Source of the DNA: an uncultured Bacillota bacterium
Lineage (GTDB): Bacteria > Bacillota_I > Bacilli_A > RFN20 > CAG-826
Assembly: GCA_949293555.1 (NCBI GenBank)
Contig: CASFDV010000002.1
Location: 17,794 to 81,793, forward strand
Direction: 5' to 3'
Length of the DNA stretch: 64,000 bases
Shown in pieces: positions 42,916 through 56,660 of this stretch. The position numbers and the translations under genes were made by a program. The notes beneath the pieces were generated by a model. That model saw only the letters and a list, made by a program, of their open reading frames with translations. It searched no databases and was not told the origin of the DNA. How positions within the stretch are numbered: the stretch's first letter is position 1; each line of letters opens with the position of its first letter.

Positions 42916-43904
42916 AGGCGGTCGTCCGCTTCGAGAACGTCCGTTTCCCGGAAGGGAGCGGCTCTTTCTCGTTCTCCCTTTCTCCAGGAGTGAACCGCCT
43001 CCTTCCTTCTGAGAAGACGGAGAGGGAAACCGCCTCCTTCCTTTTCCCCGCGGGGACGGAAGGAAGGCTCGTCGTTGAAGGGAAGGAGTTCGACCTTTCC
43101 CGGCCGGGAGACGCCGGGCTTTTCCTCCTTGAGTGCCGCTTCAAGGAAGGGGGCGTCCTTTCCTCCCTCCTTCCTGTGGACGAAAGGGAAGGGGAGAGGG
43201 TCGCGAAGGAATGCCTGGCCTTGGAAGGGAAGCCCCTGCGGGAAAGGGTCATGGGCGTCATGTCGCTCCTTGAGGGGGAAGGCGCCCTTTATTTCATCGT
43301 CGAGGAAAGGGACGCGGCCCTTCTTTCCCTTGTCCGGAACATTTATCCCTCGTCCGGAAGCGTCCCCCTCCTGATCCTCGGGGAAGAGGAAGGGAGGAAG
43401 CCCATGCCCGAGAGCAGGGTCCGCTTCCGCTCGGGGAACTTCGAGAGGGAGCCCTTCCTGAAGGACATGAAGCTTAACCTTGGGGAGTACCTCTTCCAGG
43501 CCCTCTTCATGTTCCTCGCCTCCTCCCTTTCGATATTCGGGGTCCGTTCCCTTCTGAAAGGCGAGGACGGCCTTGTCGCCGGGACATGCCTCGCGGTAGG
43601 CTTCCTCGTCCTTCTCGTCTTCCTCAACAGCGTACGTTCCTCCCTTTCCCTTCTCCTCAAGAGAGGGAAAGGCCCCCTGCGCCTCAGGAGGATGTCCCTC
43701 GTCTCGGGCCTTGCGGGATCCCTTGGGGCGGCCTTGTCCTTGCTTCTCGCCTATGTATTGGAGGCGACCTCCTTCCTTGGCGGATTCCTTGATGGATTCG
43801 GGGACTGGTCGCTTTTCCTTTGCTTCCTCGTGGCGCTCCTTTCCTTCGTCTTGTCCCTCGGGGTTCTCGGAAGTCTCATGGGGAGGAAGAAGAATGGCAA
43901 CTAG
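42912..43904 (+). CDS. Degenerate ABC-ATPase-like domain fused to a membrane domain
   Basis: A 330-residue protein that overlaps the Wzy-like gene by 4 bases. The first 170 residues look like a shrunken ABC nucleotide-binding domain: AVVRFENVRFPEGSGSF, SFSLSPGVNRLL, TEGRLVVEGKEFDLS, then RVMGVMSLLEGEGALYFIVE, and VPLLILGEEEG. The Walker A, signature and Walker B motifs are missing. Residues about 190-320 contain four hydrophobic helices and a basic tail (GRKKNGN). I infer a non-catalytic, possibly regulatory or scaffold protein of polysaccharide assembly or export. The ABC relationship is my reading of weak similarity. Confidence 0.55.
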   Translation: MKAVVRFENVRFPEGSGSFSFSLSPGVNRLLPSEKTERETASFLFPAGTEGRLVVEGKEFDLSRPGDAGLFLLECRFKEGGVLSSLLPVDEREGERVAKECLALEGKPLRERVMGVMSLLEGEGALYFIVEERDAALLSLVRNIYPSSGSVPLLILGEEEGRKPMPESRVRFRSGNFEREPFLKDMKLNLGEYLFQALFMFLASSLSIFGVRSLLKGEDGLVAGTCLAVGFLVLLVFLNSVRSSLSLLLKRGKGPLRLRRMSLVSGLAGSLGAALSLLLAYVLEATSFLGGFLDGFGDWSLFLCFLVALLSFVLSLGVLGSLMGRKKNGN

Positions 43905-45030
43905 GATGAAAATGATGACGATCGTCGGGACGAGGCCCGAGATCATCCGCCTGTCCGAGACCATCAAGAAGCTCGACAAGGAGTTTGACCACGTCCTCGT
44001 CCATACGGGGCAGAACTACGACTACGAGCTGAACGGGATCTTCTTCGAGGAGCTGGGGCTCAGGAAGCCTGACATCTTCCTGTCCGCGGTCGGGAAGGAC
44101 CTGGGCGAGACGATGGGGAACATCATCGCGAGGTCCTACGAGGTCATCCGTGAGGAAAGGCCGGACGCGGTCCTGATCCTCGGGGACACGAACAGCGCCC
44201 TTTCGGCGATTTCGGCGAAGAGGCTCAAGTGCCCCATCTTCCACATGGAGGCGGGGAACCGCTGCTGGGACTGGAACGTCGCGGAGATGACCAACCGCGT
44301 GATCGTCGACCACATCGCCGACATCAACATGCCCTACAGCGAGTTCGCGGAGCAGAACCTCCTGAGGGAAGGCCTCCCCCAGAGGAAGATCGTGAGGACG
44401 GGATCCCCGATGAAGGAAGTCATCCTCGCCCACGACAAGGAGATCGAGGAGTCGGACGTCTTGGAAAGGCTTGGCCTGGAGAAGGACCGCTACATCGTCT
44501 TCTCCGCCCACAGGGAGGAGAACGTCGACAACAGGGAGAAGATGTTTACCCTCTTCGCCTCCTTGAACGAGATCACCGAGGAGCTGGGGATGCCTGTCGT
44601 CTTCTCCTGCCACCCAAGGACCAGGAAGAGGCTCGAGGCGGAAGGCTTTCGTCTTTCCCCGAGGATCATTGAGAGCAAGCCCTTCGGCTTCCTGGACTAC
44701 GGGAAGCTTCAGAGGAACGCCTATGTCGTATTGAGCGATTCCGGCTCCTTGACCGAGGAAAGCGCGATCTCTCATTTCCCCGCGGTGTTGATCCGCACCT
44801 CAACGGAGCGTCAGGAAGGGACGATCTATCATGCGATTTCCATCCCTGGGATCCGTAAGGAGAACATCCTCCGGGCAATCCCTATCGCTAGAAAACGCGC
44901 GTTTGAAGGCCGGTCTACAGGGGTAATCGCAGTTCCGGATTATGACGTGGATGATGTCTCGGATAAGGTTGTTCAAATGATCGTCGGCATGGCGGATTGG
45001 GTTAGAACGAAAGTCTGGGGAGCCTCCTAG
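43894..45030 (+). CDS. capG: UDP-N-acetylglucosamine 2-epimerase (CapG/FnlC type)
   Basis: A 378-residue non-hydrolysing 2-epimerase: MKMMTIVGTRPEIIRLSETI, HTGQNYDYELNGIFFEELGL, VLILGDTNSALSAISAKRL, IFHMEAGNRCWD, EEMNRV-like NVAEMTNRVIVDHIAD and ALVLSDSG-like YVVLSDSGSLTEES are all typical. With capE and capF it would complete UDP-N-acetyl-L-fucosamine synthesis. I choose ATG 43894, which has GGGAGGA seven bases upstream and overlaps the previous stop; ATG 43906 is the alternative. The last third is AT-richer. Confidence 0.9.
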   Translation: MATRMKMMTIVGTRPEIIRLSETIKKLDKEFDHVLVHTGQNYDYELNGIFFEELGLRKPDIFLSAVGKDLGETMGNIIARSYEVIREERPDAVLILGDTNSALSAISAKRLKCPIFHMEAGNRCWDWNVAEMTNRVIVDHIADINMPYSEFAEQNLLREGLPQRKIVRTGSPMKEVILAHDKEIEESDVLERLGLEKDRYIVFSAHREENVDNREKMFTLFASLNEITEELGMPVVFSCHPRTRKRLEAEGFRLSPRIIESKPFGFLDYGKLQRNAYVVLSDSGSLTEESAISHFPAVLIRTSTERQEGTIYHAISIPGIRKENILRAIPIARKRAFEGRSTGVIAVPDYDVDDVSDKVVQMIVGMADWVRTKVWGAS

Positions 45031-46226: not shown

Positions 46227-47231
46227 ATGATAACTAAATTCGATGGTAAGGTCTTCCTGATTACCGGCGGGACCGGCTCCTTCGGCCATGCGATGGTCGA
46301 CCGCCTTCTTACGGTCGGCCCGAAGGAAATTCGCATCCTTTCCCGCGACGAGAAGAAGCAGGACGACATGCGGAAGGCCTACGGGGACGACCGGCTGAAG
46401 TTCTACATAGGGGACGTCAGGGACCTTTCCGCGATCGACGGGGCGTTCCGCGGGGTGGACTATGTGTTCTCTGCGGCGGCCCTGAAGCAGGTCCCTTCTT
46501 GCGAGTTCTACCCGATGGAGGCGCTCAAGACGAACGTCATCGGTAGTGACAACGTGATCACTGCCTGCGTCCATAACCACGTGAAGAAGGCGGTGTTCCT
46601 CTCGACGGACAAGGCGGCCTATCCCATCAATGCGATGGGGATGACAAAGGCTCTCATGGAGAAGAACGTTGTTGCCAGGAGCAGGCAGATGCTGGAGGGC
46701 GACACCGTGCTTTGCCTGACCCGCTACGGGAACGTGATGGCTTCCCGAGGGTCCGTGATCCCTCTCTTCGTTGATCAGATCAAGTCAGGCAACCCCATTA
46801 CGGTGACGAACCCCGAGATGACCCGCTTCATGATGACCCTCGAGGATGCGGTCGAGCTTGTCCTTTATGCCTTCGAGCATGGGGAACAAGGCGATCTCTT
46901 CGTCCAGAAGGCTCCTGCGGCGACGATCAGGACGCTCGCCGAAGCGGTCCTGTCCTTCTATCCGGAGAACAAAGGGATCGACTACATCGGGACGAGGCAC
47001 GGGGAGAAGCTCTTCGAGACCCTCGTCACCCAGGAGGAGATGCTCCGCGCGGCGGATGAAGGAAACTTCTTCCGGATCAAGTCCGACAACAGGGACCTTA
47101 ACTACGGGAAGTACGTCGAGCACGGGATGGGGCATGTCGAGATTCCGGAAAGCTATACGTCCCACAGCACGACAAGGCTTGACGTCGAGGGCATGAGGAA
47201 GCTCCTGCTCAAGCTGGAGATGTTCCGGTGA
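46227..47231 (+). CDS. capE: UDP-GlcNAc 4,6-dehydratase/5-epimerase (CapE/FnlA type)
   Basis: A 334-residue short-chain dehydrogenase. The NADP site is FLITGGTGSFG (11-20), then VFSAAALKQVPSCEFYPMEALKTN. The usual Tyr-x3-Lys pair appears as Met137-x3-Lys141 in INAMGMTKALMEKN, the Met variant characteristic of CapE-type inverting dehydratases. RYGNVMASRGSVIPLF and GTRHGEKLFETLVTQEE confirm the family. It makes the 4-keto-6-deoxy-L-arabino intermediate for FucNAc. It overlaps capF by 4 bases. Confidence 0.93.
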   Translation: MITKFDGKVFLITGGTGSFGHAMVDRLLTVGPKEIRILSRDEKKQDDMRKAYGDDRLKFYIGDVRDLSAIDGAFRGVDYVFSAAALKQVPSCEFYPMEALKTNVIGSDNVITACVHNHVKKAVFLSTDKAAYPINAMGMTKALMEKNVVARSRQMLEGDTVLCLTRYGNVMASRGSVIPLFVDQIKSGNPITVTNPEMTRFMMTLEDAVELVLYAFEHGEQGDLFVQKAPAATIRTLAEAVLSFYPENKGIDYIGTRHGEKLFETLVTQEEMLRAADEGNFFRIKSDNRDLNYGKYVEHGMGHVEIPESYTSHSTTRLDVEGMRKLLLKLEMFR

Positions 47232-48349
47232 AGAAAATCCTCATCCTCGGCGGCAAGGGGTTCGTGGGGAGGTTCCTCGCCCTTTGCGTGAAAGAGCAGG
47301 GAGGCGAGCCTCTCGTATACGACCTTGGCCAAAGCGAGGACGAGCTTCTTTCTTTCTATGGCCAAGCTGACTTTGTGATCGACGCGCATGGTCTTAATCG
47401 CTCGGAGGACTCTTTCGAGTTCTTCCGGGTGAACGTGGACCAGACGATCCGTTATGCTTCGATGGCGAAGGAGCAGAAGATCCCTTACCTCTTCCTTTCC
47501 AGCATCCAGGCCGGGAACGGGACGCCCTACGGAGAGTCCAAGCTCCGGGCGGAAGAGGAACTGGAGAAGTTGGGGGACAAGGCTATCCGTTATGTCAGGC
47601 TCTCCAATGTCTTCGGCCCTACTTGCCGTCCCGGGTATAACTCGGTGATCGCCACGTGGGCGGACGCCGCTGCCCGGCGGAAGACGGATGAGATTGCCTT
47701 AAATCTGTCGTCAAGGGATCGAGTGCTTCCTCTCCTTCACGTTGGTGATCTTGCTGAGATAGTCGTTTCTATGCTGATGGGTTCTGGTCTAGATGGCATT
47801 CAGGCAAGCGTCGACAAAGCTGTTTGGAATGTTCCCCTTGAATCGGTTTGGAAACTTTTCATTCATTTGGCCAGCTTGGACCAGGAGACTGACCCTTTGG
47901 TTGGCCTCTCTTCCTTAGGGATTGCCGCATCTGTGCTTGAACGTCTCTATGGGACGTTCCTCTTCGCCCTTAAGGAACCTCTCGTTCTTGTCCCTGATAA
48001 CCACACGGACGCGAGAGGGTCCTTCTCCGAGCTTATGAAGGGAGGCTTTGGTGGAGAATGCCAGGTTTCATGGAATACAGTAAACCCTCGATTTGAAAAA
48101 GGGGGGCATTATCACCACCACAAGATTGAGCGGTTCTCCTTCATGGGTCCCAAAATGAGGCTTTCCTTAGAATCCTGCCTCCAAGCCGAATACTGGTCGA
48201 GCTCCGTGGTCACGGATCGCCTCTGCTCCTATGACATTCCGCCCTTTGTGTGTCATTCATTTCGGAACGAAGGGGCGGAAACCCAAGGGGTGGTAATCTG
48301 GTGCTCTGAGAAGTTTGACCCAAGTGATAGTGATACTTATGGTCGTTAA
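47228..48349 (+). CDS. capF: Bifunctional 4-keto reductase with C-terminal cupin (CapF/FnlB type)
   Basis: A 373-residue two-domain enzyme. Residues 1-240 are a Rossmann reductase (VKKILILGGKGFVGRFLALC, SSIQAGNGTPYGESKLRAEE) and residues 255-373 a cupin with HTDARGSFSELM, a GHYHHHKIERF metal-binding cluster and PPFVCHSFRNEG. This is the CapF layout; the cupin half epimerises and the N-terminal half reduces the CapE product. The start is GTG 47228 overlapping the capE stop. Base composition changes to AT-rich after about 47690, within the gene. Confidence 0.92.
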   Translation: MKKILILGGKGFVGRFLALCVKEQGGEPLVYDLGQSEDELLSFYGQADFVIDAHGLNRSEDSFEFFRVNVDQTIRYASMAKEQKIPYLFLSSIQAGNGTPYGESKLRAEEELEKLGDKAIRYVRLSNVFGPTCRPGYNSVIATWADAAARRKTDEIALNLSSRDRVLPLLHVGDLAEIVVSMLMGSGLDGIQASVDKAVWNVPLESVWKLFIHLASLDQETDPLVGLSSLGIAASVLERLYGTFLFALKEPLVLVPDNHTDARGSFSELMKGGFGGECQVSWNTVNPRFEKGGHYHHHKIERFSFMGPKMRLSLESCLQAEYWSSSVVTDRLCSYDIPPFVCHSFRNEGAETQGVVIWCSEKFDPSDSDTYGR

Positions 48350-49559
48350 GGAAAGGATTCGTATCTTCTTCCGGAAGGCCGGCGAATTCGTTTTCGACCG
48401 GCGCACCCTGCTTCTTTTTCTAGCTTCCATGATCGCTTTCCTGACCCCGTTCCTCGCTGCCTCAGGGAGCGAGGCGGCTTCTTCCGAATACTTGGCCACC
48501 CTAATTGCCCATGAAGCCACGGCAAACACGGAGTCCAAGGTCTTGAACGTGAACTACGCCACAATCCCTTCCGAGACTCCGGTTACTCGAGCGGAAGTAT
48601 CAAGCCTTTGTTCTGCTGCACATACCGACAGCACTTATAAGTACGTAGAGATGGAATACAACGCGCGTGTCCTGGTCAACGAGAACATAGGGGACTATGT
48701 TCGCGTCGATTCATTCCAAGACCCAGAGACATCGCTCGTGCTTTCCAACGCATTCACGAATCACACGAATCCTAAAGGGGAGATTATCTTCGACGTTTTT
48801 GAACTGAAGCTAATGTTTCCCAAGACGAATACCGGATTTTCCGGCTTTGACAATTTCTGCTATATCCGCCAGGAAGACGCCGATTACCTGATACAAACAA
48901 GCGATGGTCTTTACCAGGATTATGAGGACTTAATTGATGAGCCTCTTCCTGTCAGGTTCCTTGGATCCGAGGCCTCCCTTGAGTGGAAAATCGCAAACAT
49001 CATGTTTTCCGATAACGAGGTCTATCGTCACTTTAATACTGTCATTGGTCCGTGGGCGCTTTGCTACATCTACCTTCCTTCGTATGAATGCTGCTCGTTC
49101 AATTTTGATTACGCGGGTTCTGTTAGGACGAATGAAGGTTACTTGGAGACTTATCGAGATCGTTTCGGAGGCAAGAACTTTACTATCGCTGTCACGACCC
49201 GTGACATTCTCGATAAAGATGCTAGTGCGGTTTTGGAAATCGAGGACTTGATCCTTGGGGCGGGAGACAAGGGATATCCCGCCCCTGTTACCTTGGCCAT
49301 TAGTTTTGTTGCGCTTATTCCCCTTGTTGTCTCGCTTGTTTTGCTGAGAAAGTTTGTATGCCGGCATGCGGGAGGGGTTGCCCTCATAATGATCGCAACC
49401 GCTTCCTGCCTTTATGAAGGGTTTTCTTTGTCCTATTTGGCGAGCCCTCTGAATGTCATATATTTCACAAGCCAAGGGATGCTGATCTTCCTTGTTCTTC
49501 TTCTTGCTGGCATCGGCACGCTGTTTCTTGTCCGTGTATCCGGAGGCAGGGAACCGTGA
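48339..49559 (+). CDS. Membrane protein with large extracytoplasmic domain, unknown function
   Basis: A 406-residue protein with one helix near the N-terminus (about 22-42), about 280 residues probably outside the cell, and three C-terminal helices (about 315-400). The ecto-domain is rich in Asn, Tyr, Phe and Asp with no family I know. The layout recalls the two-ended anchoring of FtsX/MacB-type permeases, but motifs are lacking. ATG 48339 is preferred; it overlaps capF by 11 bases. The gene is AT-rich. It overlaps the polymerase gene that follows by 4 bases. Confidence 0.65.
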   Translation: MVVKERIRIFFRKAGEFVFDRRTLLLFLASMIAFLTPFLAASGSEAASSEYLATLIAHEATANTESKVLNVNYATIPSETPVTRAEVSSLCSAAHTDSTYKYVEMEYNARVLVNENIGDYVRVDSFQDPETSLVLSNAFTNHTNPKGEIIFDVFELKLMFPKTNTGFSGFDNFCYIRQEDADYLIQTSDGLYQDYEDLIDEPLPVRFLGSEASLEWKIANIMFSDNEVYRHFNTVIGPWALCYIYLPSYECCSFNFDYAGSVRTNEGYLETYRDRFGGKNFTIAVTTRDILDKDASAVLEIEDLILGAGDKGYPAPVTLAISFVALIPLVVSLVLLRKFVCRHAGGVALIMIATASCLYEGFSLSYLASPLNVIYFTSQGMLIFLVLLLAGIGTLFLVRVSGGREP

Positions 49560-50869
49560 AACTCTGGCTGAAAATGTATTGGCGCCGTTGCAATTGTGAT
49601 AGGCAGGAGTTTGTTCTTCGCCTGTTTTTGCTTGCCATCCTTGGGCTCCTGTTTGTCTCGTTCCCTTGCATGAGCGGCATCCAGCCGTTCAACCTGATTC
49701 CAATCGCCATAAGCGTTGTGTTCGCGCTTCTCGCCTTTGCGTTCCTTTATTGGAAACGCCGCCTAGCGCTCACCCCAAGGATGGCTTCCCTTCTGCTTTT
49801 TTCCATCTATTCCGTGCTAATGACCTTAATTGGGTCGCGCGACTATTCGATGGTGTTCACTATCATTTCGAACGTTCTCATTTGCTGCGCGGTTGCTGAA
49901 TATGTTTCCCTTACAGGAGATGGGCCGATAGCGTTGTTCCTGTATGCCGTCTCCATGCTGGTGTTTGGCGCAGTGTTTTGTGCCTTTTATTGGCAGGAGA
50001 TCCTTTCTTTCAACACGGAGAGGATTGGCGAGCTTTTTGGAAACCTGAATACGGTGGGGCTTCATTTCGTTCTCGGGGCAGCTTCGTTCCTCGGCCTTTC
50101 CTTGATGGGGAAGAGAAGGCTCCTTGTCTTCGCAATCCCCGGCATGGTTCTTGGGGCGCTTTCTTTCCTGACTGGATCCAGGGCCAGCCTTCTGATGTTC
50201 GCCCTCCTTGTCATCGTTTGGATATTTGTTCTTTTCCAAAAAAAAGTCTGGCTCTCCATCATCACGGTCGCGTGTTTGGCTTTGGTTGGCTTTGCAATCC
50301 TCTCGCTGCCCATGTTCGCCAGCATTCGTTCGCGCCTTGATGAGTTGATTACCACTTTTTTCGGCGGAGAAGGCGGGAATTATGATTATTCGGGCGTTCA
50401 AAGACTGAACATGATATGGGACGGCCTCTTTCTTTGGACGAAGAATGCAATCTTCGGGTATGGGATGGGGTCCTTCGCTGCTCTTTCAGGCTACGGTACC
50501 TATTCCCACTCGACGCTCGTGGAGATTCTCTGCAACTCGGGAATCATTGGGCTCGTGCTATTCGCCTACCCGGTTCTTACTTCATCGTTTTTCTACAAGA
50601 ACAATAGTTTCAGGCCTTTTGGCTATCTCTTTCTTATTGGGTGTGTCATCCCCTGTCTTTTCATAGGGATGATGATTTACTCAAAAGGTTTTTACTTCCT
50701 GTTCGGGGTGTTGCTTGGGGCCTATGAAAATTCCATTTCTGGCTTTGCCGGCTCGTTGGTGATTGAACGAAAGAAAAAAGGCTTCCTTCCATTCATCAAG
50801 AAGATTCCCACGAAGAATCGCCTGTTTGCCCGAGTTTCGACGTTTGACAGGGGCATCGTTCGTCTATGA
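49556..50869 (+). CDS. O-antigen polymerase (Wzy)-like membrane protein
   Basis: A 437-residue protein with about eleven helices. The conserved loop reads IFGYGMGSFAALSGYGTYSH, then STLVEILCNSGIIGLVLF, the H-S-T-L-V-E-I-L-x-x-x-G-I-x-G pattern of Wzy polymerases. GNLNTVGLHFVLGAASF and LTGSRASLLMFALL are also typical. The start is GTG 49556 overlapping the preceding stop. A run of eight A (50238-50245) in the middle of the gene could favour slippage. It is AT-rich and between a membrane protein and a GT4 gene, as in polymerase-containing capsule loci. Confidence 0.85.
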   Translation: MKLWLKMYWRRCNCDRQEFVLRLFLLAILGLLFVSFPCMSGIQPFNLIPIAISVVFALLAFAFLYWKRRLALTPRMASLLLFSIYSVLMTLIGSRDYSMVFTIISNVLICCAVAEYVSLTGDGPIALFLYAVSMLVFGAVFCAFYWQEILSFNTERIGELFGNLNTVGLHFVLGAASFLGLSLMGKRRLLVFAIPGMVLGALSFLTGSRASLLMFALLVIVWIFVLFQKKVWLSIITVACLALVGFAILSLPMFASIRSRLDELITTFFGGEGGNYDYSGVQRLNMIWDGLFLWTKNAIFGYGMGSFAALSGYGTYSHSTLVEILCNSGIIGLVLFAYPVLTSSFFYKNNSFRPFGYLFLIGCVIPCLFIGMMIYSKGFYFLFGVLLGAYENSISGFAGSLVIERKKKGFLPFIKKIPTKNRLFARVSTFDRGIVRL

Positions 50870-51984
50870 TCCGAATGCTGTTTGTTGTAGGTTCCTTGGG
50901 AAGAGGCGGGGCAGAAACTTTCGCGATGAAGCTCTTCCGCGCTTCTTTGGAGGAGGACGGCTTGACGATCGATTTTCTTTCGAGCCTTCCTGGAGTGTAT
51001 GACAAGGAAATACGGGAAAGGGGGAGGTCCGTTTTCTATACAGGGACGAGATCGCATTCGCCGAAAGCGGTTTTTCAGTCGATAAAGAGCGTAGTGCTTT
51101 ATGGGCGTTATGACTTTGTGCTTAAGTTCGCGGATTCATCTTTGTCCGTCCTGGATCTAATCGCGGCAAATCGGGGCGGGGCTAAGGTCACAGCCGTTCG
51201 GTCTATGAATTCGAAGGCAACTGGTTCTCCCTTTCTCCATGCCATACATCTTCTCTTGCGGCCCCTTCTCCGGCATTCGGCGGATATATGGATTGCTCCT
51301 TCTCGTGAAGCTGGCGCCTTCATGTTTGGCAAAAGAAACTTGTCATCGAACCATTTCCTTTTCTTGCCGAACGCCTTGCCGTTGGAAGAGTATTCCTTTT
51401 CTGAAAAAGCCAGGAAGGAGACGAGAGACAAGCTTCGCTTGGAGGAAGGCAACCTCCTTGTCGGTTTCGTCGGAAGGCTCACTGAGCAAAAAAACCCGTT
51501 ATTTCTTGTAAGAGCGTTTTCTAAGCTCTGCGAATGGCGCTCAGACGCAAGGCTTGCGGTCGTGGGCGATGGCCCAATGAAAGAACCTGCAGCGAGGCTG
51601 GCGAATGAACTTGGCTTGGCGGATCGAGTGCTTTTCCTGGAACCGACCCACAATGTGAGAGCCGTATATTCGGCGATCGACGTCCTATGGCTCCCCTCGT
51701 TCTTCGAAGGGATGCCTAACGTCGTCCTCGAAGCCCAGGCCTGCGGGCTTCCATGTTTAGTTTCGGAGAACGTGACAAGGGAAGTTGCCTTGACTGAGCT
51801 TGTTTCTCACCTGCCGCTCGAGGAAAACCGCTGGGCGAACGGGACCGACGTTTTCGAGAAAGGGCATCGATCGGAACGGAGTTGTTCCGCATGTTCCGTT
51901 CTTGAACGGAAGGGATATGCAATCGGTGATTCGCTGAACGTGTTGGAGACTGCTGCCAGTGACATTTTGGAGAGGCTTGGATAG
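50866..51984 (+). CDS. GT4-family glycosyltransferase
   Basis: A 372-residue GT-B enzyme. It starts MIRMLFVVGSLGRGGAETFA, the classic GT4 N-terminus, then has NLLVGFVGRLTEQKNPLFLV, ARLAVVGDGPMKEPAARLA, LFLEPTHNVRAVYSAIDVLW and PSFFEGMPNVVLEAQACGLPCLVS, which is the E-x7-E donor motif region. It overlaps the polymerase gene by 4 bases and ends the capE operon. A run of seven A lies near 51487. The donor sugar is not readable. Confidence 0.92.
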   Translation: MIRMLFVVGSLGRGGAETFAMKLFRASLEEDGLTIDFLSSLPGVYDKEIRERGRSVFYTGTRSHSPKAVFQSIKSVVLYGRYDFVLKFADSSLSVLDLIAANRGGAKVTAVRSMNSKATGSPFLHAIHLLLRPLLRHSADIWIAPSREAGAFMFGKRNLSSNHFLFLPNALPLEEYSFSEKARKETRDKLRLEEGNLLVGFVGRLTEQKNPLFLVRAFSKLCEWRSDARLAVVGDGPMKEPAARLANELGLADRVLFLEPTHNVRAVYSAIDVLWLPSFFEGMPNVVLEAQACGLPCLVSENVTREVALTELVSHLPLEENRWANGTDVFEKGHRSERSCSACSVLERKGYAIGDSLNVLETAASDILERLG

Positions 51985-52764
51985 TCCTCCCTGCAGCGCT
52001 ACGTGTCTCTTCGTTTATCGGTCGATGCGGAAGGGCAGATTCGTAGAGAGTGTTCGGAATCTTATGTAAATGGATCTTGTGGGGCATGGGGATTCCCGTT
52101 GCCTCGCATCGTAGCATCCGGCTGTTTGCCACCATCGCCCTGCCTCCGCCTCTCCGCGGCTTCGTGCTGGCGCAGGGACGCCGGGGCGACCATCTTTTTT
52201 GGAGCCTCTTCGGCCGCGATATGGACTCGCTTCTTGGGCGCCATCTCCAACCGCTTGCTGAAGGAACCGACACCGCCGTTCGCGCGGCCGAGCCGCCGGA
52301 GGCCAGGACGTGCCTAGCCTTCCCGAAACATACCGGCAGCACCGAGCACTTGTGTCTCCATTTGGCGGCAAAGGCCCGAAGGCCGTCCTTGCCTGCTCCG
52401 ACCCGCCTTGTGAGTCGGTCGCTGGGCGATTGTGTTCGCTAACCGCTCGCGGGCCATGCCGATCGTGTTGGGTCCAGGGAGCGCTGGAGGGTCCTCTGAC
52501 AGGCGCGTCCTTCGAGTCGCCCGATTTTCTCCCGTAGGGATCGTTCTTCTTGTAGCCGAGGAAGGTGATTTCCACTCCGGAGTCTACACAAGTGTGTGGT
52601 TATTCCCTTAGAGCGGCGGATTGTTTTGGAATTCTGTACTGCAGTGAATCCCCGGGGAGGCCGCAGGGGTTGGCATTGGAACAAGGTGGTTGAATGCTGC
52701 GCGCCGAGGCAATTTGGTTCCTATGTCCTATAAGTGGGGTACACATAAGGTTCCGGAGAGTCTT
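51985..52764. other. Decayed, gene-free region
   Basis: About 780 bases without a convincing gene. Its base composition is GC-rich while both neighbours are AT-rich. Open frames occur on both strands but none has a family-like sequence; a minus-strand stretch near 52500-52560 (LQEERSLREKIGRLEGR) looks like the coiled start of a transposase or similar protein and then breaks up. I take the segment as the remains of a mobile element or replaced capsule gene, without assignment. Confidence 0.4.
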
Positions 52765-52770
52765 TATAAT
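52765..52770 (+). promoter_or_regulatory. -10 box before the poly-G glycosyltransferase gene
   Basis: A perfect TATAAT ends 21 bases before ATG 52792. AATTG and CAATT half-sites (52772-52787) flank the expected start point and could bind a regulator. No -35 of quality is present. Confidence 0.45.
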
Positions 52771-52791
52771 CAATTGCGTACACAATTAGTT

Positions 52792-53897
52792 ATGAGCAAC
52801 TTTAGTGTTATTTATATATCTGATTACGCAGCGCCTTACCCGGGGTCGTTCATCAACTCGTTCTTAAGGCTGCGCGAACGCGTGATGTCCGGGGGGGGGT
52901 CGTCCTATGGGCTTTTCCGGAGGAAGCGGCATCTCGTGATTGGATAAGGAAGGTCCGGGACACAGGGGACGTTGTATCGTTTTATCCTCGAAAGAGCCTA
53001 GCTGGTTTGCGGATAGTTGCCAAAGGTCTTCTTGCCCAGGCAAAGGGTATGAAGACCATCGTTCACATGAACTTTTTAACTTCTAAACAGGCATTTGCTT
53101 TGCGTTGTTTAGGCTCCACTGGGTTTGTGTATCACGTCCATTCGAATCCTCCTGCAAGGCCTTTTCTCGCTCGCTTTGGCAAGAAGATGCTTTTTGATCC
53201 CGGCACTCGATTTCTTTGTCCCTCCAGGTATACGAAGGAGAGGGCAGAAAAAGAGCTGGCCTTCAGGCGTTCTCGCTGCTTGGTGGTTCCCAACGCAATT
53301 GATTTCGAGAGCCTATCCGAGGATTCCATTGCCAAGGACCTGCCTGTTTTGTCCCCTTGCAAAGAGAAGAAGCTTTTGCTCTTTGGGCGGGACCCTCTGC
53401 TTAAAGGGTTGGACATTGCGATCAAGTCGGCGTTGGGCCTGAGGCGGTCTGGTATTGCCGTAAAGATCTTCGTTCCCGCTCCCTCCAATAGCGCTTCCCT
53501 TACAACTTTTCTGAAGGGCATTGAACCAGATGACGATCCGGTTGTGGAGCTTGTAGCGCCTTCTAAGAATGTGTCGGGTTACATCTTGTCCTCTGACCTG
53601 GTTCTGGTGCCTAGCCGGGACGAGACATTCAATTACACAGTGCCGGAGTCTTTGTTCCTGGGCAAGGCGGTTCTCGTATCCGACATTCCCCCTTTCAGGG
53701 AGTTTGGGTTACCGGAAGAAATGGTATTCCGAAGCGGGGACGTCCAAGACTTCTCCTTTAAGCTTAGCAATCTTCTGATGAACCCTCTCGATAGCGGAAC
53801 AATCTCGAAACTTTGCCATATGGTAAGTCAAAGGTTCTCGATTGATGTCTGGTCTTCCAGAATCATTGAGCAATACCGTCTCTTGGCGACCAGGTAA
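52792..53897 (+). pseudogene. GT4-family glycosyltransferase split by a G9 tract (phase-variation candidate)
   Basis: The N-terminus is read from ATG 52792 (MSNFSVIYISDYAAPYPGSF) to a run of nine G at 52891-52899 and then meets a stop at 52947 after 51 residues. One frame over, the protein continues without a break as VVLWAFPEEAASRDWIRKV to 53897. It includes VYHVHSNPPARPFL, FLCPSRYTKERAEKEL, KKLLLFGRDPLLKGLDIA and VPSRDETFNYTVPESLFLGK, all GT4 features. Adding one G, or losing two, gives an intact enzyme of about 368 residues. No other damage is visible, which favours a slippage switch or a sequencing error over old decay. Confidence 0.8.
52891..52899 (+). repeat. Poly-G tract (G9) in a glycosyltransferase gene
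   Basis: Nine consecutive G lie at codon 34 of the glycosyltransferase frame, exactly where the reading frame is lost. It is the longest G run I saw in the window. Such tracts change length by slipped-strand mispairing in phase-variable surface genes of other bacteria. Confidence 0.85.
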
Positions 53898-53916: not shown

Positions 53917-55434
53917 TTACTGGGTACTTCTGGCAAAGATTTTGCGTGTAAACCCAATGCCCCATCTCCGAGTTGGTTTTGAGCAAAGGCAGAATCCGCC
54001 GGATACGGCAGCAGCGATTCCCACTCCGATAAAACCGTTGGCGACGAACTGGGCAGCTGGGGCAAGAGAGAACAGGGATGTTAGGTAGAGTGATAAAGAT
54101 GCTTCCCCGAGGAATAGGAAGGGCATAAGAATCATAAAGACACAGGTCATGTCAAATTTCGTGGCGAACACCTTCTTGTAGAGGAAGTAGGTCGTTCCCG
54201 GGATGCTTACGAGGCAGTAGACGATAACGTTTGCCCATGTCACCCCCAGGATTCCGAAAGCGAATACCAGAGACAACTTGAGAATTAAGTGGGCGATGGC
54301 GGTCGCGACGGGGACCGCCATGTCCTCTTTGAAGAGGCCGGATGCGTCGCGGAACGTGGCAGAAACCCAGGCGTATAGGTTCACGAAGCTAGCGGTCGAC
54401 AGGGAAAGAACAAGGGGCCACCCTTCCGTGAATTCCGATCCGTAGAAGAAGGACACGAACGGGGTGGATGCGGCGGCGAACCCTACGTAAACAACCGAGG
54501 ACAGGAGGAAACCTCCCATCGACATGATGTCGAAGTAGCGTTTGAAGGCCTCTTTCCCTTGGCTCTTGTAGGCATGCCCGATGACAGAGACCATCGCGGA
54601 TATCCCTGCCCCAAGGACGTTCACCAAGGCGGTTGAGATCGTCGCGTAGTTCGAGTAATGCCCGAGCACGGTCACCGAGATGACGGAAGAGATGAGAATC
54701 GTGTCCAGGCTGTTCGCGAAGATGCCGCTGATGCGGTGGAGGAGGTTCCCGCGGATGAGCTTGAACACCTCTTTCTTCTCTTCGGGGGATATGGTTCCCG
54801 ACAGCTGGAAGATGTCCTTGTGGTTTCTTGTACCTGCCCAGAGGAGGACGTACTGCAAGGCGAGGTTCACGAGGGAGAACGAGCTGAAGAGAAGGAAGTT
54901 CGGATAGACGTAGGCGAAGATGATTTGGAGGACGTGCTGGACGATCGTCGCCAGGGAACTGGCGAGGTCCTTCTTGTAGTTCTCTTTGTATGCGGCCAGG
55001 AGCGTGCCCTTGGCGCTGAAGAAATACACGCAGCCTGTCCCTAGGAGATAGGCCGCATAGGAAAGATAAATGTCCCAGGTAACCTCCGCGCCCTTGGAAA
55101 GGAAGGGAAGGAGCGCCCCCGCCACCGCTCCAGAAGCAAGGATGATTATCCCAATAACGATGTAGATTCTGCGGAGATAGTGATAGTAGGCCGCGACCTT
55201 CTCCTTGTCCTCCTTCAGGATTGGATCATAGAGGCAGAAGGCAATCGCGCCTGCGAATCCGACCTCCACGATCGTCAGGACGCCGAAGATGCTGTTGAAG
55301 AGCTGGGTGAACCCTTGGTAGTCGACCCCGAGCATGTGGACAAGCGCCCTTAGGGCGAAGAAGTTGAGGATGACCGAGACGACCCTGAGGCCGATGGAGG
55401 TCAGCGAGTTTAGGAGAGCGCGTTTCTTGTCCAT
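53917..55434 (-). CDS. Polysaccharide flippase (Wzx, MATE-like)
   Basis: A 505-residue membrane protein with twelve to fourteen helices of the polysaccharide transport (Wzx/MviN-like) family. It begins MDKKRALLNSLTSIGLRVVS and has LVHMLGVDYQGFTQLFNSIFGVLTI, VGFAGAIAFCLYDPI and a paired-helix C-terminal half. It would flip the lipid-linked repeat unit across the membrane before polymerisation. I choose ATG 55434, with a TATCAT box 14 bases upstream; a GTG at 55497 overlapping the upstream stop would add 21 non-conserved residues. Confidence 0.88.
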   Translation of the reverse strand: MDKKRALLNSLTSIGLRVVSVILNFFALRALVHMLGVDYQGFTQLFNSIFGVLTIVEVGFAGAIAFCLYDPILKEDKEKVAAYYHYLRRIYIVIGIIILASGAVAGALLPFLSKGAEVTWDIYLSYAAYLLGTGCVYFFSAKGTLLAAYKENYKKDLASSLATIVQHVLQIIFAYVYPNFLLFSSFSLVNLALQYVLLWAGTRNHKDIFQLSGTISPEEKKEVFKLIRGNLLHRISGIFANSLDTILISSVISVTVLGHYSNYATISTALVNVLGAGISAMVSVIGHAYKSQGKEAFKRYFDIMSMGGFLLSSVVYVGFAAASTPFVSFFYGSEFTEGWPLVLSLSTASFVNLYAWVSATFRDASGLFKEDMAVPVATAIAHLILKLSLVFAFGILGVTWANVIVYCLVSIPGTTYFLYKKVFATKFDMTCVFMILMPFLFLGEASLSLYLTSLFSLAPAAQFVANGFIGVGIAAAVSGGFCLCSKPTRRWGIGFTRKIFARSTQ

Positions 55435-55496
55435 GGCTTCGGAAGAGAATGATAGGCGTTTAGGAGCGAAGGTTGTTACTTCTAATGGTCCTTCCA

Positions 55497-56621
55497 CTAA
55501 TCTGCCGGGGCGCCGCCGAAGCCTCCGCCTTTGTAGATCTTGGCAAGGTTATGCACCTCCCGTATCTCTTTCCCTGTAAGTTCCGAAAGGGCCTCGACTT
55601 TTTCGCAGTCCATCAGGAAGATGCAATCCGGCCTGGCGATCAAATTGCTCATAAGGTCTGTGTTGTGGGTCGTCAGCAGGGATTGAAATTTTTTCGACTC
55701 ATTTATTAGCCCGACGATTTCCCTGGCGACGGCATAGTGGTAGGGGGCATCGAATCCATCGACCAGGAGGAAGGAGAGATCAGGGGAGCGCCTTTTCCAG
55801 TAGAAGAGGGCTATCAAGGCTTTCGTTCCTGTGGAAGCGATTTCGGTTAGGTCGATCGAGCGGCCTTTGAATCTTGCCGCGACCGTGCGGAGCTTCCTGC
55901 CGCTCAGATCGCGGACAGGGCCCTCTTCCAGAGGAAGGATTATGCCGGCCTTGTCTCTTAGGAATTGCTCGAGCCCTTTGATTCTTCCGTCGCGGGCAAT
56001 CTCATCTGCCATGTCTTCCAGGCGGGGACGAGATCCTTCTTCATTCGGGAGCGGACGCAATAAGAGCATCCGATCCACGAAATCGACGAGCTGCCCGTAA
56101 AGGGAGTCGTGAGGGAACGAGAGGAAGTTGGCGAGGGAGAAGAAGGCGGAGACCTGCGGCGATATGGCTTGGAAGTTGATGTTCTCCGTCCCGGGGATGC
56201 TGCACTCCACGCTGGCGCCGCGTTTGTCCAGGACAACCTCCCCGTTCACCTCCATCTTCTCGCAGGAAACTTCGAAAGGCGAAGGCTTCCCGTATTCATA
56301 GACGAGCCGCTTCCCCTCTCCGAAAGAGAACTCATAGCGGAACACGGCCTCCTTCGCCCCATCCCCGTTCAGGAAGGACAGGGGATTGCCCGGGGGAAGC
56401 GAAATCTTTCCCCTGACTAGGTTCCGGTTGACCTGAATGTCGATGATCGCCTCCGTGAGGGAAGACTTGCCGCATCCGTTGGGTCCGTAAAGGAGGGCAT
56501 GGTTGACCCTCCCGTTTTTGATAAGCCCTTCGTTGAAGTCGTAGTGCCTCGGCCTGTCGAAGCGAATCTCCGTCCTCTTTGCGAAGCCCCGGAAGCCCTG
56601 GACGCTGATGGAATCTAGCAT
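55497..56621 (-). CDS. AAA ATPase (AAA15/RloA-like) with altered Walker B
   Basis: A 374-residue ABC/AAA-type ATPase of the kind found in OLD/RloA-like proteins. Walker A is LLYGPNGCGKSSL (about 44-55), the signature-like region is IASTGTKALI (261-270) and the His of the switch is in LLTTHNTDLMSN. The C-terminus LAKIYKGGGFGGAPAD is typical of the group. The Walker B motif reads LLVDGFDAPYHY: the catalytic Glu is Gly289, a one-base change from GAA to GGA. ATG 56621 follows GGAGG with nine bases between. The family is often linked to phage defence, but no RloB-like partner is adjacent. Confidence 0.82.
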   Translation of the reverse strand: MLDSISVQGFRGFAKRTEIRFDRPRHYDFNEGLIKNGRVNHALLYGPNGCGKSSLTEAIIDIQVNRNLVRGKISLPPGNPLSFLNGDGAKEAVFRYEFSFGEGKRLVYEYGKPSPFEVSCEKMEVNGEVVLDKRGASVECSIPGTENINFQAISPQVSAFFSLANFLSFPHDSLYGQLVDFVDRMLLLRPLPNEEGSRPRLEDMADEIARDGRIKGLEQFLRDKAGIILPLEEGPVRDLSGRKLRTVAARFKGRSIDLTEIASTGTKALIALFYWKRRSPDLSFLLVDGFDAPYHYAVAREIVGLINESKKFQSLLTTHNTDLMSNLIARPDCIFLMDCEKVEALSELTGKEIREVHNLAKIYKGGGFGGAPAD

Positions 56622-56625
56622 GGCT

Positions 56626-56660
56626 TTAGTCCTCCGTATATTTTCTACGGACATATTATA
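56626..56660 (-). promoter_or_regulatory. Promoter and leader of the AAA ATPase gene
   Basis: On the minus strand TATAAT (56660-56655) is followed directly by an ATG, a short inverted repeat (CCGTA and TACGG) and GGAGG before the true ATG 56621. The first ATG abuts the box and would not be transcribed, which decides the start. Confidence 0.6.

Follow-up and report, generated by a model that had tools for sequence, protein, structure and literature searches.

A run of nine guanines splits the reading frame of an otherwise intact glycosyltransferase gene of the GT4 family, and the explanation best supported by the data, which we consider likely, is that the run acts as a phase-variation contingency locus. 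The gene was found in a 64,000-nucleotide stretch of DNA that was analysed as a whole (hereafter the window), and its tract is probably one among many random on/off switches in the lineage. With good confidence, an order-wide repertoire of poly-G switches can be proposed, comprising promoter-spacer tracts (before lipoprotein, polysaccharide and defence genes), signal-peptide tracts and frame switches in glycosyltransferase and DNA methyltransferase genes, in an order of gut Bacilli with small genomes, one genus of which would in addition have lost MutS1 and MutL.

A G tract sets the reading frame of a GT4 glycosyltransferase gene

The run of nine G occupies exactly the predicted positions in the assembly, 52891–52899, and is the sole run of eight or more G or C within the window. 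The gene can be laid out as follows:

52792..52890, plus strand: 5' part of the GT4 gene, with an ATG start and 33 codons (MSNFSVIYISDYAAPYPGSFINSFLRLRERVMS)
52891..52899, plus strand: G9 tract, the proposed slippage switch, at codons 34–36; the two gene parts are out of frame in the assembly
52792..52947, plus strand: shortened product of 51 codons predicted for the G9 allele, with its stop at 52945–52947
52900..53897, plus strand: remainder of the gene, read in the second frame, ending in TAA at 53895–53897, free of further defects and carrying the GT4 domains

From the ATG at 52792, translation proceeds through 33 residues, three glycines contributed by the tract and 15 further codons before meeting the stop, giving a product of 51 amino acids that ends at 52947 (MSNFSVIYISDYAAPYPGSFINSFLRLRERVMSGGG). 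The second frame is offset by one base; beginning within the tract, it runs uninterrupted through 331 codons up to the terminal TAA. Joined, the two would read through 368 residues. Since the frames are one base apart, the frame of the gene is set by tract length modulo 3, and the original prediction that ten (or seven) G would yield a product of about 368 residues is thus borne out by computation. Runs of at least 7–9 G or C within a reading frame are the mark of contingency loci (cut-offs taken from PMC6321876 and PMC5953494); the G9 tract is such a run, and a change in its length would shift an otherwise intact gene between full-length and truncated frames.

The C-terminal part of the protein matches PF13439, PF13692 and PF00534 above the Pfam gathering scores, which upholds its assignment to GT4, and both Rossmann-like domains of that family (Glyco_transf_4 and Glycos_transf_1) are detected in this part. 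The N-terminal 33 residues gave no Pfam match when searched alone; they align to the N-termini of two intact homologs from the same family of organisms (L145 and L140), in which the regions corresponding to the two halves form one continuous sequence. In this alignment, the homologs vary in length where the tract falls, and the secondary structure of the GT-B fold would place the tract in the loop between the first helix and the second strand of the N-terminal domain. The earlier claim that the frame change is the only defect of the gene agrees with these observations, i.e., the 331 open codons after the tract, the domains above cut-off and the continuity of the homologs across it. None of the other 36 genomes of the genus, each representing a separate species, yielded an ortholog, and comparisons with 60 relatives, all 37 genomes of the genus and 395 of the class recovered only homologs of about 20–35% identity. 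A scan of genome contigs with the GT4 query and a search of the PDB by its sequence returned no match, and a plasmid search returned one distant glycosyltransferase.

The surrounding polysaccharide cluster

The following neighbours of the gene were identified:

43711–45030: WecB-like epimerase gene (NCBIfam match below the curated cut-off)
46227..48349, plus strand: genes for an FnlA-like dehydratase and a WbcJ-like reductase, for the synthesis of UDP-amino sugars (NCBIfam matches below the curated cut-offs)
49556..50869, plus strand: O-antigen ligase/polymerase-like membrane protein (Wzy_C, PF04932)
50866..51984, plus strand: upstream GT4-family glycosyltransferase of the same cluster, intact
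53917..55497, minus strand: polysaccharide flippase-like membrane protein (PF13440), convergent with the GT4 gene

With FnlA-, WbcJ- and WecB-like enzymes, a Wzy-like protein, two further GT4 genes and the convergent flippase, the region is, judged by its gene content, a capsule-like or O-antigen-like polysaccharide cluster. It had been described as AT-rich, a term that has to be given up: its GC content of 50–55% is lower than that of the genome (62%), yet falls short of AT-rich. The flippase gene does lie beside the glycosyltransferase gene, as had been noted, but the two stand on opposite strands and converge, and thus belong to separate operons rather than a shared one. Adjoining the flippase gene on the same strand is an AAA ATPase gene (window positions 55497–56654, minus strand) that matches the PADLOC candidate defence model PDC-M12A. 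Between the two glycosyltransferase genes, window positions 51985–52790 (about 800 bases) gave no Pfam match in the three plus-strand frames or the longest minus-strand ORF; this stretch is possibly a decayed gene.

Long G runs are purged from gene bodies in the source genome

The source genome, in which the window is G000:C2:17794-81793, is assembled to 1.34 Mb in 6 contigs and is 97% complete; the closest relatives of one neighbouring gene come from gut metagenome genomes, and the organism is hence most likely an uncultured member of the Bacilli living in the gut. A sample of 709,560 of its coding bases holds only 4 runs of at least seven G against about 183 expected from synonymous-codon shuffles of the coding sequence, with a comparable deficit at each length (3 against 121 for G7 and 1 against 43 for G8). 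A scarcity of poly-G inside genes is usual in prokaryotes (PMC2831843). This purging of long G/C runs from gene bodies makes an intragenic G9 exceptional in this genome and speaks against a chance origin. Indeed, 800 kb of it contain just two G/C runs of nine, namely the GT4 tract and one in a signal peptide.

Genome-wide, there are nine tracts of at least eight G, and all but the GT4 tract lie between genes or within a signal peptide. Four of the nine (L006–L009) are placed between -35-like and -10-like boxes, and another (L010) is a G9 within the signal peptide of an exported protein, where it is in frame. A further candidate switch is a C7 run (G000:C3:82610; L124:2610-2616) that separates the halves of a type II N6 DNA methyltransferase gene, both of which match one PADLOC model in the proper order. 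Phase-variable methyltransferases constitute a classical class, and this tract-split gene points to possible phase-variable methylation.

Poly-G tracts in promoters and signal peptides of the genus

Across 37 genomes of the genus, 84 distinct tracts of at least eight G were collected. Strong -35/-10 pairs flank 10 of these, where shuffled flanks give 1.7 and the opposite strand gives 1. Likewise, a close ATG with a hydrophobic start downstream accompanies 18 tracts against 1 on the opposite strand, which served as the control, the 18 including the GT4 tract itself, some promoter tracts and a few chance cases (e.g., the IspE-like L193 and the valyl-tRNA-synthetase-like L234). Most of the recognisable tracts in the relatives are in promoters or signal peptides, and the mid-domain position of the GT4 tract is less typical.

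Many tracts belong to one class of exported proteins in which G8–G11 directly precede the core of the signal peptide; counted from the ATG, some are in frame (L010, L223, L216 and L247) and others out of frame (L181, L185, L187 and L238). For L010, the sole member of this class that was tested, neither Pfam nor NCBIfam gave a family. In two sister species, L185 and L216 represent one gene, out of frame in L185 and in frame in L216; downstream of the tract, 199 of 211 residues are identical, with a dN/dS of 0.30. An intact out-of-frame copy is what reversible switching would predict, although both of these alleles, too, are taken from assemblies. The lineage thus holds several candidate contingency loci at regulatory positions. 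Separately, an intergenic motif of G8–9 followed by TGAAAT recurs in L003, L012, L179, L219, L225 and L232, which the promoter model leaves unexplained.

Poly-G promoter spacers across the order

Among 196 genomes of the order, 61 contain the pattern TTGA-N5..13-G8-N0..4-TAnnnT, with about 160 matches in total (a number of sites entering this count twice); the reversed pattern matched once. Many of the 160 have near-perfect TTGACA and TATAAT boxes, and the resulting loci (L257–L326) carry runs of 8–11 G. Among 83 promoter sites, runs of 8, 9 and 10 G are about equally frequent (the search having required at least 8), and the spacers cluster at 15 and 18–19 bases. Otherwise matching promoters differ in the number of G: G10 and G11 in G400, G8 and G9 in G446 and G060, and, within a single genome, G9 and G8 ahead of the tandem lipoprotein genes L317 and L318. 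A G run between the boxes whose length differs among copies is consistent with a promoter-spacer switch of the porA/fetA type in these relatives. The genes downstream of such promoters include those for BspA-type LRR proteins, two sugar transferases, two acyltransferases, ABC transporters and many lipoproteins. In the source genome, a PbeA-like defence gene is found downstream of a poly-G promoter (L008); it and its counterpart in another species (L218) both have such promoters, the two tracts differing by one base (G8 and G9).

Mismatch repair

MutS1 (MutS_I) and MutL (MutL_C) were each found in none of the 37 genomes of the genus, whereas each was recovered from 11 of the 14 genomes used as controls. 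A MutS2-like protein is retained: the single MutS_V protein that was inspected resembles MutS2, with an end that by eye appears Smr-like. A loss of MutS1 and MutL should render the tracts less stable and raise the rate of switching. A requirement of MutS loss for the promoter tracts was considered and rejected: MutS is present in other families of the order, whose promoter tracts are as numerous or more so, and hence such loss is unnecessary for the tracts.

Alternative explanations

An error of sequencing or assembly, whereby the G9 would be a miscalled homopolymer, the dominant allele of another length and the gene intact, is unlikely, though it survives best among the alternatives. G9 is near the top of the homopolymer lengths of the genome, and it has been pointed out that the tract length in a reference may differ from that of the population majority (PMC9187656). 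Against this stands a three-periodic coding-frame scan of 800 kb, which yielded 12 candidate frame breaks, mostly at gene ends or overlaps; with so few true breaks, an indel-ridden assembly can be rejected, even if the scan called the glycosyltransferase gene itself non-coding and is thus poorly sensitive in atypical DNA such as the polysaccharide cluster. In the same 800 kb, at least seven other G7/C7 runs within coding sequence stay in frame. Moreover, such an error would not explain why long G runs in the relatives are placed non-randomly, and even with a miscalled length the locus could still be a switch. Together, these points weaken this alternative.

A plain pseudogene, inactivated by a random indel within a G run in recently acquired DNA and now beginning to decay, is less probable still. 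The absence of the gene from every relative in the genus, the foreign composition of the cluster and the stretch directly upstream with no recognisable gene would all fit such an origin. However, the frame remains open after the tract, with domains above cut-off, and the break coincides precisely with the longest G run, a type of run that is otherwise purged from gene bodies in this lineage.

Constant low-level expression of the G9 allele through ribosomal -1 frameshifting or polymerase slippage, with no genetic switch, is very improbable as the full account: GGG GGG GGG is a slippery stretch on which a -1 movement restores the frame, but a stimulatory RNA structure is absent 3' of the tract (fold z-score of -0.18 against shuffles) and the promoter-spacer tracts of the same lineage are incompatible with such a mechanism. 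Frameshifting or slippage at the G9 may nonetheless make the OFF state leaky.

A proposed switch in surface polysaccharide

Phase variation, which the original prediction had raised as a possibility, accordingly stands as the best-supported reading of the GT4 tract, with the G-run evidence from genome, genus and order in agreement. The tract would be a translational contingency locus at which DNA polymerase would slip frequently. Tract lengths equal to 1 modulo 3 would give a single joined protein (ON), and the G9 allele would give the 51-residue stub (OFF), possibly with some leakage. In part of the population, switching would then introduce or omit a single sugar step of the surface polysaccharide, the benefit being probably against phages or host recognition. 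We infer these steps, from slippage in living cells through the ON/OFF effect and the altered sugar to the benefit.

If such an architecture does extend across the order, with one genus showing no detectable mismatch repair, cells of these bacteria that share a gut would be unlike one another in their surface sugars and surface proteins as well as in DNA methylation and phage defence. The type of switch is already known from Campylobacter, Neisseria and Bifidobacterium, and the interest lies chiefly in the broader poly-G repertoire, which would span a whole order of uncultured Bacilli from animal guts; no prior report of poly-G phase variation in the source lineage was found in the open-licence literature.

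Comparison with known systems

Phase variation by G tracts has been documented mainly in Gram-negative mucosal pathogens and in a few commensals. The premise that G tracts in surface-glycan genes are contingency loci in other bacteria is well founded in Campylobacter jejuni, where poly-G tracts switch glycosyltransferase genes of the capsule and LOS (wlaN, cgtA and capsule genes) in an organism without functional mismatch repair (PMC8355987). The present locus resembles these in that a G run within a surface-glycan transferase gene sets the frame by its length in a host without detectable mismatch repair. It differs in its unrelated lineage (Bacilli), in a gene family that is non-orthologous and in that switching is here predicted from sequence.

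In Neisseria, the porA gene carries a poly-G/C tract in its promoter spacer. Other neisserial poly-G/C loci are genic, as in lgtA and lgtG, or intergenic, as in fetA (PMC5953494). The source lineage likewise combines frame tracts with promoter-spacer tracts, at G/C lengths of 8–11, whereas its promoters are of the form TTGACA..G8–11..TATAAT of gut Bacilli and stand mostly before genes for lipoproteins and membrane proteins.

In Bifidobacterium (B. breve), pilus genes carry intragenic G tracts whose switching has been measured (PMC9187656). As in those loci (G9–G12), the tract described here belongs to a Gram-positive gut commensal and joins two ORFs of a gene for a surface structure; the structure is a pilus there and a glycan here, and the switching that was measured there is here predicted from sequence.
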